Shown piece after piece: positions 37,454 to 45,624 of a stretch of DNA of 52,671 bases. The notes under the pieces are model-generated. The model had not been told where the DNA came from and did no database searches. It worked only from the letters and a program-made list of their open reading frames with translations. The position numbers and the translations under genes were made by a program. This stretch comes from Nitrospirae bacterium JdFR-86. Its GTDB lineage: Bacteria > Nitrospirota > Thermodesulfovibrionia > Thermodesulfovibrionales > JdFR-86. The stretch is from contig MTOV01000020.1 of NCBI GenBank assembly GCA_002011815.1, positions 54,942 through 107,612 on the forward strand, in the 5' to 3' direction. The first letter of the stretch is position 1, and each line of letters opens with the position of its first letter.

Positions 37454-37696
37454 TTAGTAAAACTCTTCTTCCTGTTCTTGTTTTTCAAGAAGTTCCTTAA
37501 TCAGGCTGAGTGCTTCGTTTGCAGCTTCTTTGTCCACTTTCTGGATGGCAAAACCTGCATGCACCAGCACGTAATCGCCTGTGGTCACTTCCTCGGGCAT
37601 CAGGAGCAAGCTTACGTCTCTTCTGGCTCCATAAACGTCAACAGTGGCGATTGTATTCTCTATCTTTATTACCTTAGACGGTATTGCCAGACACAT
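37454..37696 (-). CDS. hypC: HypC/HybG hydrogenase maturation chaperone
   Basis: 80 residues beginning MCLAIP. After methionine removal this cysteine carries the Fe(CN)2CO unit delivered to the large subunit. The family core VDVYGARRDVSLLLMPE and GDYVLVHAGFAIQKVD is intact; a short glutamate-rich tail follows. It overlaps the 3' end of the protease gene hyaD by 23 bases. HypA, B, D, E and F are not in the window. Confidence 0.95.
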   Translation of the reverse strand: MCLAIPSKVIKIENTIATVDVYGARRDVSLLLMPEEVTTGDYVLVHAGFAIQKVDKEAANEALSLIKELLEKQEQEEEFY

Positions 37697-38174
37697 TGTT
37701 TACTTCTACTCCCCAGCTCTTGAGTTTATCTAATATAGCATTTATCAGTGTTTCGAATCTTTCGTTTAGTTTTTCAGACATTTGAAGTCCTACTTCTATT
37801 GTATCAGGCTGTATTCCCACGAGGCACATTTCAGGGGGAATTGTGCCTTTCAGGGATGCTGAAAAGAGCATGTCCGGAAGACCTATCTGATGCACGGATA
37901 GTTTTGTATCGAGGAAGGCTTTTATGTCTTTTCCTTCGATAATCCTGACCGTGCCGGGAGGGGTATCTTTGAAATTTACTGCATCTATTATAAGGAGTCT
38001 GTCCTTGTCTTCGATAAAGGGGAGGAGGTCAAGTCCCATAGTGCCTCCGTCAATGAGTTCTACGTCTTCAGGAAAGGTATACCTTTCCTGAAGTGCCCTT
38101 ACGGCGTGGACTCCAACCCCCTCATCCCTCAGGAGTATATTGCCTATGCCTAAGATCGCTGTCTTTATTCCCAC
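37674..38174 (-). CDS. hyaD: Hydrogenase maturation protease
   Basis: About 166 residues from GTG 38174: IKTAILGIGNILLRDEGVGVHAV carries the nickel-sensing Glu/Asp region, ELIDGGTMGLDLLPFIEDKDRLLIIDAV the second metal ligand, and the conserved His is in KLSVHQIGLPDML. It cleaves the C-terminal peptide of the large subunit after nickel insertion. The open frame extends upstream over the cytochrome gene; GTG 38174 is the last usable canonical start. Its ribosome site is oddly close, inside the cytochrome's last codons (AAGGAGTGG). Confidence 0.9.
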   Translation of the reverse strand: MGIKTAILGIGNILLRDEGVGVHAVRALQERYTFPEDVELIDGGTMGLDLLPFIEDKDRLLIIDAVNFKDTPPGTVRIIEGKDIKAFLDTKLSVHQIGLPDMLFSASLKGTIPPEMCLVGIQPDTIEVGLQMSEKLNERFETLINAILDKLKSWGVEVNNVSGNTV

Positions 38175-38824
38175 TCCTTGCCTGTTACGAACTTGTATCC
38201 ACCGAAGATACTTCCCATCAAGCCGTTCTTCTCTACTGTATCCAGATGCCATGCTATGTAGACATGCAGAACTGCAAACACCAGCAGCACATACATTACG
38301 AGGTGGTGGAAGAGTCTTATGGTCTGCACATGCATGATGCCGAGAAGCCATCCGCCAAGAAGCGTCCATAAGGCTCCGCTGTGAGCCTGACTGTAAAGTG
38401 CAAAGCCTGAGACTATCTCGAATATAAAGAGCAGGAAGACGATGAGATATGTCAGTCCTGCAAGCGCAGTGTGCCCGACTGCATAAGGAGGCTTTCTGCT
38501 GATGAGCAGATAGAACTTCACAGCATTTACAAGGTCGCGCCAGCGGTCAGAAGAGAAGGGGAACCATATTTTCCAGCTTGCATATCTGTTTCCTGCGAAC
38601 GCCCAGTAGAGCCTTATAATGACGCTCATCAGGAATACGTAAGCAGCGGTGAAGTGTATGAACCTCATCCAGCCCATGATGTACTGTTTTGACGAGTAAG
38701 CGTGTATGAACGGTGCTCCGATGTAAAAACCGGTTACTGAAAGGGTTAAGATGCAGAGGACGTTTATCCAGTGTGTGAACCTTACGGGGAATTCCCATGC
38801 ATAGACTCTTAGTCTCTGGTTCAT
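38165..38824 (-). CDS. hyaC: Hydrogenase b-type cytochrome subunit
   Basis: 219 residues, HyaC/HupC family with four to five membrane helices. Haem-ligand histidines are suggested in PVRFTHWINVLC, GWMRFIHFTAAYVF and VQTIRLFHHLVMYVLLVFAVLHVYIAWH. It passes electrons from the periplasmic hydrogenase to quinone. It starts at ATG behind GGAGGACGCC, ten bases after the large subunit, and overlaps hyaD. Confidence 0.94.
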   Translation of the reverse strand: MNQRLRVYAWEFPVRFTHWINVLCILTLSVTGFYIGAPFIHAYSSKQYIMGWMRFIHFTAAYVFLMSVIIRLYWAFAGNRYASWKIWFPFSSDRWRDLVNAVKFYLLISRKPPYAVGHTALAGLTYLIVFLLFIFEIVSGFALYSQAHSGALWTLLGGWLLGIMHVQTIRLFHHLVMYVLLVFAVLHVYIAWHLDTVEKNGLMGSIFGGYKFVTGKEWE

Positions 38825-38833
38825 GGCGTCCTC

Positions 38834-40543
38834 CTATACAATCCTTATCTTGGTTACCGGTTTGCCCTCGGCGTCAAGGACGTGCACTGCGCATGCCATA
38901 CACGGGTCGAACGAGTGTATTGTCCTGAGTATCTCGATAGGCTGATTCGGGTCTTTCACAGGTGTTCCGACGAGTGCAGACTCATAAGGCCCTCTCTGCC
39001 CTTTTGCATCTCTTGGCGAACCGTTCCATGTGCTCGGCACAACGCACTGGTAGTTTGCAATCTTTCTGTCTTTTATCCTTACCCAGTGTCCGAGTGCGCC
39101 TCTTGGCGCTTCATGGAAGCCGTAGCCTTGTGCCTCTTTAGGCCAGGTTGAGGGGTCCCATTTGCTTCCGTCATGGACTCTGAAGTCTCCTCTTTTTATG
39201 TTCTCTATAAGCTGTTCTATCCAAACAGTGAGCATCTCTGCGGTAACGAGAGTTTCCACTCCTCTTGCGGCTGTCCTTCCGAGTGTCGAGAACAGGGCTT
39301 CAGGACCTACATTGAGTTTCTTGAGCACAAGGTTGATGACTTCCTGTATCCTTTTGTGTCCGGAAGCATAGGCAACGAGCATTCTTGCAAGAGGTCCGAC
39401 CTCCATGGGCATGTCGTCGTATCGAGGGGCTTTAAGCCAGCTGTATTTGCCGTCAGTGTTGAGGTGTTCGTATGGAGGTTTAGGTCCTGTGTATTTGTAG
39501 TTTGTCTCGCCGTCCCACGGATGTTTGGGTACAGAATCGCCCTCTTTGTATTCATACCACGAGTGGGTTACGTATTCCATTATCTTTTCGTGGTCTACAG
39601 GATGCACTTTGCTCAGGTCTTTGTTCTTGATTACTCCTCTTGGAAGCCAGAGGTTGTCTGTGTTGGAGATGTTGTCATTGGGGAATTCACCGTATGCAAG
39701 GTAGTTTCCGACACCTTCGCCGTATTGAGCCCATTCTTTGTAAAAAGATGCCACTGCGAGAAGGTCTGGGATATAGACCTTTTCCACAAACTCCTTTGCC
39801 TTTTTTGCAAGTGTGAGCATATGGGCAATGGAGATGGTGTTCAGTGCGCTTTCGCTGTTCGGGTCGATGGGCACAGCCATTCCGCCGACAAGATATGTCT
39901 GGGCATGAGGGTTCTTGCTTCCTAATATAGCGTGAATCTTTATTACGTCTTTCTGCCAGTCGAGTGCTTCCAGATAGTGCGCAACAGCCATGAGGTTTGC
40001 TTCAGGCGGAAGTTTGTATGCAGGGTGTCCCCAGTAAGCGTTGGCAAAAGGTCCAAGCTGTCCGCTTTCAACGAATGTCTTGAGCTTTTTCTGAACCTCG
40101 CTGAAATAATCGGTGCTTGAGTTATGCCAGTCTGATATGGCCTGAGCGAGAGAGGATGTCTTTTTGGGGTCTGCTTTCAGGGCGCTGACGATGTCAACCC
40201 AGTCGAGGGCGTGGAGGTGATAGAAATGTATTACATGATCCTGAACATACTGGATTCCTGTTATGAGATTTCTTATGATCCTTGCGTTGTCCGGTATAGT
40301 TATATCAAGTGCGTTTTCTACAGCTCTCACGGAGCTGGTGGCGTGAACCGTCGTTCAAACACCTCATATTCGTTGAGTGAATGCCCATGCATCACGAGGG
40401 TCTCTTCCTTTAAGTATTATCTCCATTCCTCTGAACATCGTGCTTGATGCCCATGCGTCTTTGACTCTGCCGCCTTCTACCTGAGCCTCTATTCTCAGGT
40501 GACCCTCGATTCTGGTTATAGGGTCAACTACGATTTTAGCCAT
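38834..40543 (-). CDS. hyaB: [NiFe] hydrogenase large subunit with two in-frame UGA codons (putative double selenocysteine)
   Basis: Reading from ATG 40543 (GGGAGG seven bases upstream) gives [19 protein letters not shown], the standard start of group 1 large subunits. Codons 60 and 63 are TGA (40366-40364 and 40357-40355), at exactly the two cysteines of the L1 motif: R-I-U-G-V-U-T-T-V-H in place of RICGVCTTVH. The frame then stays open for 498 codons without a break and ends with the intact L2 motif DPCMACAVH (C548, C551) plus a 15-residue tail for the protease. Total 569 residues, normal length. Known [NiFeSe] enzymes carry selenocysteine in the L2 motif, not here. A hairpin lies at 40321-40337. 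A pseudogene is the alternative, but two nonsense changes only at nickel ligands make that unlikely. Confidence 0.85.
40321..40337 (-). promoter_or_regulatory. Candidate bacterial SECIS hairpin in hyaB
   Basis: The mRNA has a perfect 6-bp stem, CAGCUC / GAGCUG, with a CGUGA loop containing GU. Its loop begins 23 bases after the second UGA and 32 bases after the first. As I recall, bacterial SECIS elements need a G in the first two loop positions and a UGA-to-loop distance of roughly 16-37 bases; both UGAs satisfy this. The stem codes T69-S70-S71, where relatives usually have Leu-Ala-Ser. Confidence 0.6.
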
Positions 40544-40555
40544 TTAATACCCTCC

Positions 40556-41659
40556 CTACTCAGTTGTTTCCTTTTCTTTTGGTTTTCCTTTGACAGCCCT
40601 TGCTATTCCGTGCACCGCAATACCTGCGGCTGTTACAGCTGCAAGACCAGCTCCGATTTTGTCAGCAGTGCTTTCGATACCAAAGCCCGGGACTTTCGGA
40701 AGCCTCTTATAGAACGGGGTCATGGTATCCCAGAAGCGAGGTGCAGCGCATCCTATACAGCCGTGACCAGAACCTACAGGCCAGTTCGTCCCTTCGTTCC
40801 ATCTTATTACAGGACAATTTTTGTAGGTTTCAGGTCCTTTGCATCCCATTTCATAGAGGCACCAGCCTTTTCTGTGCCCTTCATCTCCCCACTGTCTTAC
40901 GAACTGTCCTGCATCAAAGTGCGCTCTTCTTTCACAGTGGTCATGGATTCTTTCGCCGTATGCAAAGAGTGGACGTCCATGGCTGTCAGTTGCAGGGAAA
41001 GTGCCAAAAGTAAGATAGTGAACGATAGTGGCAGTGAGGTTTTCCACGTTCATAGGGCAGCCGGGCAAGTTTATCAGTGTTATTCCCCGCACTGCGTCTT
41101 TCACTCCGACTGCACCGGTAGGATTAGGGTCTGCTGCTGGCCAGCCACCATCCCATGCGCAAGCGCCTACTGCTATAGTGGCAAGGGCATTGCCGCAGAC
41201 TTCACGCACGATGTCAAGTGCAGACCTGCCGCCTATACAGCAGTAAATTCCTCCGTCCTTTGTCGGAATAGAGCCTTCTACCACTGCAATGTATTTCCCC
41301 TTCTGGTGTTTGACTACATCATCACGGGATTTTTCCGCCTGCTTGCCGGCAGGAGCCATGATGGTTTCGTGATAATCAACTGAAAGGACATCAAGGACGA
41401 TTTCAGCTACCGTCGGCTTGTTTGCCCTCAGGAAGGACTCGGTGTCTCCGGCACAATCCTGAAACTCCAGCCACACGAGTGAGGGTTTTCTGGCTTTCTC
41501 AAGCGCCTCTGCTATCTTTGTGGCAAATCCTGCAGGTAGAGCCAAAGTAGCAGCCATTGCAGTGCAGAATTTCATGAAGTCCCTACGTGAAACGCCTCGT
41601 TTTAAAAGCCTACCTACGATGTCAATGTGGTCATTTTCACGATGGCCCAAAGATTTCAC
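40556..41659 (-). CDS. hyaA: [NiFe] hydrogenase small subunit, Tat-exported
   Basis: 367 residues. The Tat signal has SRRDFMKF (24-31) and a hydrophobic stretch. Proximal-cluster ligands are C69, C167 and C201; the fourth position, normally Cys in CxxC, is Asp (C-A-G-D72). Distal ligands are H239, C242, C267 and C273; medial C282, C301 and C304. A C-terminal hydrophobic helix (GAGLAAVTAAGIAVHGI) anchors it in the membrane. It is a periplasmic H2-uptake subunit handing electrons to the cytochrome b. The listed start is GTG 41659, which overlaps the GGGAGG site; TTG 41650 has better spacing and may be the real start. Confidence 0.95.
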   Translation of the reverse strand: MKSLGHRENDHIDIVGRLLKRGVSRRDFMKFCTAMAATLALPAGFATKIAEALEKARKPSLVWLEFQDCAGDTESFLRANKPTVAEIVLDVLSVDYHETIMAPAGKQAEKSRDDVVKHQKGKYIAVVEGSIPTKDGGIYCCIGGRSALDIVREVCGNALATIAVGACAWDGGWPAADPNPTGAVGVKDAVRGITLINLPGCPMNVENLTATIVHYLTFGTFPATDSHGRPLFAYGERIHDHCERRAHFDAGQFVRQWGDEGHRKGWCLYEMGCKGPETYKNCPVIRWNEGTNWPVGSGHGCIGCAAPRFWDTMTPFYKRLPKVPGFGIESTADKIGAGLAAVTAAGIAVHGIARAVKGKPKEKETTE

Positions 41660-45444: not shown

Positions 45445-45531
45445 TGCCATCGAAAGGGTAAAGCACGGGTAACCGTGTGGCACAAAGCCACCTGTCCGGT
45501 ACAATCGGATAGAGGGGCTGTCGAAATGGCA
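45445..45531 (+). ncRNA. GEMM-type (class I) cyclic-dinucleotide riboswitch
   Basis: The outer stem is TGCCAT/ATGGCA. Inside are AAAGGGTAAAG, a P2 hairpin with a GUAA tetraloop (CACGG-GTAA-CCGTG), the conserved GGCACAAAGCCAC segment, a third stem and GGGGCTGTCGAAATGG. The order and conserved blocks match GEMM RNAs such as Vibrio Vc2 and the Geobacter aptamers. The G before the U-A-A-A block aligns with the residue that favours c-di-GMP over cGAMP in class I, but ligand choice needs a test. A terminator follows 15 bases later, so it probably controls transcription. Confidence 0.82.
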
Positions 45532-45576: not shown

Positions 45577-45624
45577 GTTGGAGAAGATAATGGGATATTA
45601 TAATTCTGGAGATTGGAGGAAATA

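Follow-up and report, generated by a model that had tools for sequence, protein, structure and literature searches.

An aspartate in place of a proximal-cluster cysteine in a cytochrome-b-linked hydrogenase with two predicted selenocysteines at L1

The small subunit of a hydrogenase of Nitrospirae bacterium JdFR-86 carries an aspartate where a cysteine of the proximal iron-sulfur cluster is usually found, and it lies within a clade of 73 tree rows in which this position, number 20 of the mature enzymes, is Asp in 47, Asn in 26 and Cys in none. The gene belongs to a stretch of 52,671 nucleotides, here called the window. We see an even chance that this is a three-cysteine proximal cluster of raised potential, with an oxygen-donor Asp or Asn at the fourth site, which favours H2 uptake into cytochrome b; the substitution looks more like potential tuning of H2 uptake than oxygen defence. 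The basis for the tuning reading is the substitution itself, the conservation of Asp or Asn over the clade, the remaining cysteines and the cytochrome b neighbour. Replacement of a proximal cysteine by Asp or Asn is already published as a kind, in groups 1f, 2a and 1h and in a group-1b-like enzyme; the more novel feature is in the large subunit, where two predicted selenocysteines at L1 accompany an L2 that is all cysteine. The small subunit gene and its relevant codons, with residues numbered from the GTG at 41659, are as follows.

40556..41659, minus strand: gene for the hydrogenase small subunit, 367 codons when read from the GTG at 41659 (TIGR00391, 448 bits)
41453-41455, minus strand: codon TGT of C69, the first proximal-cluster Cys (position 17 of mature enzymes)
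41444-41446, minus strand: codon GAC of D72, the Asp replacing the proximal-cluster Cys at position 20
41237..41242, minus strand: C140-C141, proposed as substitute ligands, not conserved as required ligands
41159..41161, minus strand: codon of C167, third proximal Cys, kept in 73/73 clade rows
41057..41059, minus strand: codon of C201, fourth proximal Cys, kept in 73/73 clade rows

In a family-model search the protein is a member of TIGR00391, far above the cut-off of 179.5 bits; it has a TAT signal (TIGR01409, 23.9 bits, cut-off 16.7) and, by eye, an apparently hydrophobic C-terminal stretch, and it is the only small-subunit match within its own genome. The real start is likely the TTG at 41650, which the ribosome-binding site suits better than the GTG, and numbering from there would give C66 and D69 instead of C69 and D72. 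The replacement of CxxC by C69-A-G-D72, reported in the initial annotation, is borne out on the minus strand in the context D-C69-A-G-D72-T-E-S. In five solved chains (1h2a, 8pou, 8pow, 8poy and 5mdj) the aligned motif reads C-T-G-C or C-T-C-C, so D72 stands at the fourth proximal-ligand position. It aligns with the Asp of the solved actinobacterial-type (group 1h) small subunit HofK (5aa5, motif CDGD) and with the Asn of Huc, a group 2a enzyme (7uur, motif CSGN). All six medial and distal cluster sites that were checked keep their Cys.

Small subunits for comparison were drawn from 48 of 61 genomes, from the window's phylum (120 of 295 genomes, E 1e-60 or better), from the class to which a Chloroflexi genome belongs (32 of 150 genomes) and from 80 listed loci of a pattern scan for TGA in L1, these sources partly overlapping. 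The counts of position 20 and L1 leave out the distant paralogues L055-L057, the fragment L058, the duplicates L184-L189, L009, L284, L285 and L304, any small subunit of at most 180 residues and any large-subunit match whose start lies beyond model position 60; L001 duplicates the window and is not counted separately. Locus counts of motif, L1 and partner gene are not dereplicated, and some genomes sit in two collections. Rows more than 92% identical that shared their position-20 and L1 states, rows with fewer than 200 filled columns and rows lacking position 20 were kept out of the tree, a quick tree of 165 dereplicated rows with the motif columns removed.

The support for the Asp/Asn clade is moderate. 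The quick tree gives it an SH-aLRT of 98, and in a careful 77-row tree, for which 45 of the 73 clade members were picked at random and joined by 32 others, the Asp/Asn rows again fall together to one side of a single branch (bootstrap 76, SH-aLRT 95). The clade's closest neighbours in the 165-row tree are all-Cys enzymes with CxxC retained. Named clade rows come from Nitrospirota (15), Chloroflexota (3), Pseudomonadota (1), Thermodesulfobacteriota (1) and no stated phylum (3); the rest, which include the window itself and three rows of the Chloroflexi survey, are mostly of the window's order or class. Since every one of the 73 rows has Asp or Asn at position 20, D72 is neither chance nor a sequencing error. 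Parsimony demands at least 10 changes between Asp and Asn within the clade, and 7 among the 45 clade rows of the 77-row tree; for the combination of CxxN with UxxU (U, selenocysteine), the well-supported branches of the 165-row tree alone force 5 changes. The codons in 72 clade rows are GAT (27), AAC (22), GAC (19) and AAT (4), and nothing except Asp or Asn occurs although many residues are one base away from GAY or AAY, so a side-chain oxygen would seem to matter. By a hand estimate with transitions weighted three-fold, about a quarter of the non-synonymous single-base changes from GAY or AAY reach the other member of the pair, and five to ten changes between the two with no third residue would have, very roughly, a chance of 1e-3 to 1e-6 without constraint. 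By inference from this strict limitation, the residue at position 20 appears to be constrained. HofK and Huc offer two far-apart examples of the two states, while here both occur within one clade of similar enzymes, and these repeated natural swaps among close relatives amount to an evolutionary experiment on proximal-cluster potential and catalytic bias.

The initial annotation had pointed to actinobacterial-type hydrogenases, a kinship that does not hold. The small subunit matches 5aa5 at E 5e-25 and 1h2a at 1.7e-100, it has the TAT signal and the cytochrome b neighbour, and it is far from the 1h-like row L178 (best solved match 5aa5), which falls far outside the 73-row clade on a long branch, its exact place being unsure. 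Group 1h membership is rejected: the Asp at position 20 is shared, but the TAT signal, the L1 and L2 motifs and the tree position differ. According to the available text of PMC5364354, group 1h has neither a TAT signal nor a C-terminal membrane helix, and its L1 and L2 read RICGICGDNH and DPCLPC, against RI-TGA-GV-TGA-TTVH and DPCMAC in the window. Because there are 6 changes between Cys and Asp/Asn over the whole 165-row tree (parsimony), the Asp of group 1h is probably an event separate from that of the clade, with the caveat that the 1h-like row is long-branched. Huc is also distant (E 8e-31), and its three [3Fe-4S] clusters, described in the accessible part of PMC10017518, contrast with the Cys at all six medial and distal sites of the window protein.

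Other groups fit no better. The group 1d enzymes Hyd-1 and MBH are, like this one, cytochrome-b-linked with an unusual proximal cluster, but they have six proximal Cys whereas both supernumerary sites are G in the window protein (the 120 site is G in 73/73 clade rows), and membership is rejected. So is the group 1c Hyb type, given the cytochrome b neighbour (TIGR02125 over its cut-off) and an NF007779 score of 370.2 of 659 bits. The replacement of one of the four proximal Cys is shared with HupS of Methylacidimicrobium (group-1b-like), where Asn takes its place, and with group 1f small subunits, which have Asn or Asp, as here; Asn is given for group 2a at this site. HupS and group 1f were compared by description only, and in the available text of PMC5364354 we found no Asp/Asn-switching clade and no L1 selenocysteine reported for them.

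Downstream of the small subunit follow, in order, the large subunit, a b-type cytochrome, a HyaD/HybD protease and HypC:

38834..40543, minus strand: hydrogenase large subunit, open only with readthrough of two TGA codons
40364..40366, minus strand: TGA at the first L1 Cys position (predicted selenocysteine)
40355..40357, minus strand: TGA at the second L1 Cys position (predicted selenocysteine)
38891..38908, minus strand: L2 motif DPCMAC, Cys codons kept
38165..38824, minus strand: Ni/Fe-hydrogenase b-type cytochrome subunit (TIGR02125, 153.3 bits, cut-off 121.5)
37674..38240, minus strand: HyaD/HybD family maturation protease, start uncertain (TIGR00140, 161.8 bits, cut-off 151.8)
37454..37696, minus strand: HypC family chaperone (TIGR00074, 85.6 bits, cut-off 48)

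With selenocysteine entered as Cys, the large subunit is below every model cut-off. Known [NiFeSe] hydrogenases have selenocysteine at the first Cys of L2, whereas here L2 is all Cys and the two TGA codons, hence two predicted selenocysteines, are in L1 (RI-TGA-GV-TGA). Membership of the known [NiFeSe] group is rejected on the DPCMAC of L2 and on the scores for NF045520 (232.6 of 470 bits), NF045518 (438.6 of 780) and NF033181, the nearest model (588 of 600, a near miss). What the two have in common is selenium at the active site, predicted in the window and present in the known enzymes as selenocysteine in place of one of four Cys (available text of PMC4730141). Selenocysteine at one or both L1 positions rather than at L2 looks undescribed: the literature searched, with subscription journals mostly outside its reach, yielded no description, and the accessible part of a 2026 selenoproteome review (PMC13188914) enters UxxC for FrhA/MvhA, with no L1 form found there.

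The pattern scan returned at least 119 stretches with TGA in L1, and the 80 matches listed come from Nitrospirota, Chloroflexota, Desulfobacterota/Deltaproteobacteria, Spirochaetes, one Proteobacteria, one Rokubacteria and unplaced bins. Every fully readable L2 is DPCxxC with Cys codons (151 reads, with one incomplete, one misaligned and the others uncovered). SelA and SelB are present in the window's genome; SelB does not discriminate, being found in 16/16 UxxU genomes queried and also in 10/11 genomes of one genus (code g14) with an all-Cys L1. Among the candidates scored, 34 of 40 genomes queried have a tRNA-Sec with anticodon TCA, and the RF01852 candidates scored in the window's own assembly include none. 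The best RF01852 match there (contig C2, L306:1501-1595, 66.7 bits) has the anticodon GCA. Of 12 further, weaker matches read in relatives, 7 share this GCA type; six of these accompany a TCA tRNA-Sec, and the one in genome G058 is the only match there. Such a tRNA may be a tRNA-Cys with a long arm, or one of Sec type that decodes Cys codons. After the L1 TGAs, RNAalifold gave no conserved hairpin over 61 sequences (-1.4 kcal/mol), and single-sequence folds are no better than in all-Cys relatives (mean -13.9 over 61 against -16.0 kcal/mol over 57), so SECIS support is lacking; the window's own fold, taken with no shuffled control, gives -10.2 kcal/mol for 63 nt after the second TGA and -18.3 for 75 nt from the first. 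A TGA in the frame of the L300 small subunit was dismissed as only its own stop codon.

We believe and doubt in equal measure that these large subunits form a widespread [NiFeSe] class with selenocysteine at one or both L1 positions and an all-Cys L2, one large clade of which has the Asp/Asn swap at the proximal cluster, so that both ends of the first electron-transfer step would be retuned for one-way H2 uptake. If that class is real, selenium would serve both as terminal and as bridging ligand at the Ni-Fe site. To our knowledge no earlier enzyme has selenium at the bridging position, where it would lie here if both L1 TGAs are selenocysteine. One Hyb-linked locus, L221 (probably the same genome as L108), reads RFUGVU and sits among CxxU rows; its placement suggests that double selenocysteine at L1 may have arisen more than once.

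The genes beside the hydrogenase bear on its role. Counted over loci of at least 5 kb, not dereplicated and with the distant L178, L181 and L182 included, the 44 CxxD rows have a cytochrome b gene in 33 cases and no partner in 11, and the 14 CxxN rows in 12 and 2, with HybA/HybB in neither. The 66 ordinary four-Cys rows divide into 36 with Hyb only, 6 with both, 2 with cytochrome b only and 22 with neither; cytochrome b accompanies 11/11 DxxC and 8/8 six-Cys rows, and three rows lacking a readable motif have cytochrome b twice and Hyb once. In the 73-row clade 33 rows have cytochrome b, none Hyb, and 40 no partner, many of these loci being too short to reach one. The exception is L289, a CxxD row with a Hyb-type partner, which lies outside the clade at a locus shorter than 5 kb. 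Across the tree no more than two changes of partner gene are needed, which makes the link between ligand and partner no more than a lead. On our favoured reading, given an even chance above, the enzyme is an uptake [NiFe(Se)] hydrogenase, exported by the TAT route and linked to cytochrome b, in which C69, C167 and C201 would hold the proximal cluster, with an oxygen-donor Asp, or Asn in relatives, at the fourth site. Such a site-differentiated cluster may be either a [4Fe-4S] with Asp as a ligand or, like that of Huc, a [3Fe-4S]; its presumably raised potential would draw electrons off the Ni-Fe site and pass them through cytochrome b to quinone, and H2 uptake would be the favoured direction. 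[3Fe-4S] clusters lie as a rule about 250 mV above [4Fe-4S] (PMC10017518, accessible part), and on the effect of a non-Cys ligand on cluster potential the available text of PMC9503767 reports no clear consensus.

The initial annotation had proposed a proximal cluster of three Cys and one Asp, and of this the presence of only three of the four usual Cys stands, as does the placing of D72 at the Asp site of HofK; that D72 is a ligand is something we infer. The residue could instead be a non-ligand as might be the case in Huc, filling the site and forming hydrogen bonds beside a plain [3Fe-4S] cluster in Asp and Asn forms alike. The interchange of the two within one clade fits this, as does Huc itself, which combines Asn here with a [3Fe-4S] proximal cluster (the accessible part of PMC10017518 does not name the residue at position 20); yet the strict limitation to Asp and Asn suggests more than space filling, and the proximal cluster of group 1h is coordinated by an Asp (PMC7174314 and PMC5364354, available text), with Asn coordination mentioned for group 2a in the latter, so that we regard a non-ligand role as possible though doubtful. 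It is barely conceivable that another Cys, C140 or C141, serves as the fourth ligand. A Cys at the C140 site occurs in 70/73 clade rows, but also in 94/113 rows that keep Cys at position 20, E. coli Hyd-1 and Hyd-2 among them, and cannot therefore be compensation; moreover, the clade rows L017 (LS) and L092 (AM) have no Cys at either site, and the pair is rejected as a required substitute. It had been suggested at the outset that a tree, together with C140 or C141 as ligand, could reduce the protein to an ordinary group 1 enzyme: the tree does set it apart from group 1h, and neither Cys is needed as a ligand.

What the Asp/Asn cluster is for raises two further alternatives. One, voiced in the initial annotation, is oxygen tolerance through a 3Cys-1Asp cluster of the actinobacterial kind, perhaps with help from selenium. 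In its favour, the Asp takes the same position as in HofK, and 42 of 62 Asp/Asn genomes of the window's phylum have a match to the oxidase family PF00115 (E 1e-30 or better), which also takes in NO reductases. Protection of Ni by selenium has been proposed for the known [NiFeSe] enzymes (PMC13188914, accessible part). Against it, the small subunit is unrelated to group 1h, the PF00115 match is absent from the other 20 of these genomes, the window's own among them, Asn forms are common as the site alternates, and in a preliminary test the hydrogenase of one Methylacidimicrobium strain, group-1b-like with Asn for Cys, was inactivated above ~0.01% O2 (available text of PMC5364354), so that the Asn form is at least not enough for oxygen tolerance. 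The reading is thus weak, and we think it unlikely. The other would have Asp or Asn compensate for the presence of selenocysteine among the nickel and iron ligands of L1. The two do co-occur, L1 in the 73-row clade being UxxU in 62 rows, CxxU in 7 and CxxC in 4. Yet the tree rows with Cys retained at position 20 include 15 UxxU and 21 CxxU (with 26 CxxC and 11 unread), and seven Asp/Asn tree rows have an all-Cys L1. The idea that Asp or Asn never goes with an all-Cys L1 is overturned by L206, L208, L213, L273, L290, L291 and L181. The tree test gives no support either to compensation or to the synergy with selenium raised in the initial annotation, its 2 independent pairs showing a mean of 0 in favour and 0.7 to 0.9 against, too few to decide, and compensation strikes us as very unlikely. 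Selenocysteine counts are inflated by the 80 pattern-scan loci, selected by their L1 TGA (50 UxxU, 30 CxxU). Without these and six plasmid yardsticks, 158 loci remain, in which Asp or Asn goes with UxxU in 56, CxxU in 6, CxxC in 6 and an unread L1 in 2; CxxC small subunits go with UxxU in 12, CxxU in 15, CxxC in 36 and an unread L1 in 10; and the other 15 comprise 13 DxxC and 2 lacking a readable position 20.

A mirror-image motif, D-x-x-C with Asp at 17 and Cys at 20, is found in twelve tree rows that form one separate clade (rows with it are L050, L228, L230, L233, L234, L238, L240, L245, L246, L248, L249, L252 and L254), and the six-Cys form of the Hyd-1 type is also present among the sampled rows. 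A C-C-G-N motif, in which a further Cys immediately follows the first proximal one, is present in L006, L007, L008, L013, L014, L193, L264 and L266; Cys at position 18 appears only alongside Asn (6/26 Asn against 0/47 Asp clade rows), a difference that is not significant in independent pairs. An Asn case outside the 73-row clade is L181, on a plasmid of Sulfobacillus acidophilus, with CDGN, an all-Cys L1 and an annotated b-type cytochrome gene. Elsewhere in the window a c-di-GMP-I riboswitch aptamer (45447-45525, plus strand, 59.6 bits) lies upstream of an open reading frame at 45613 whose product looks lipoprotein-like by eye.
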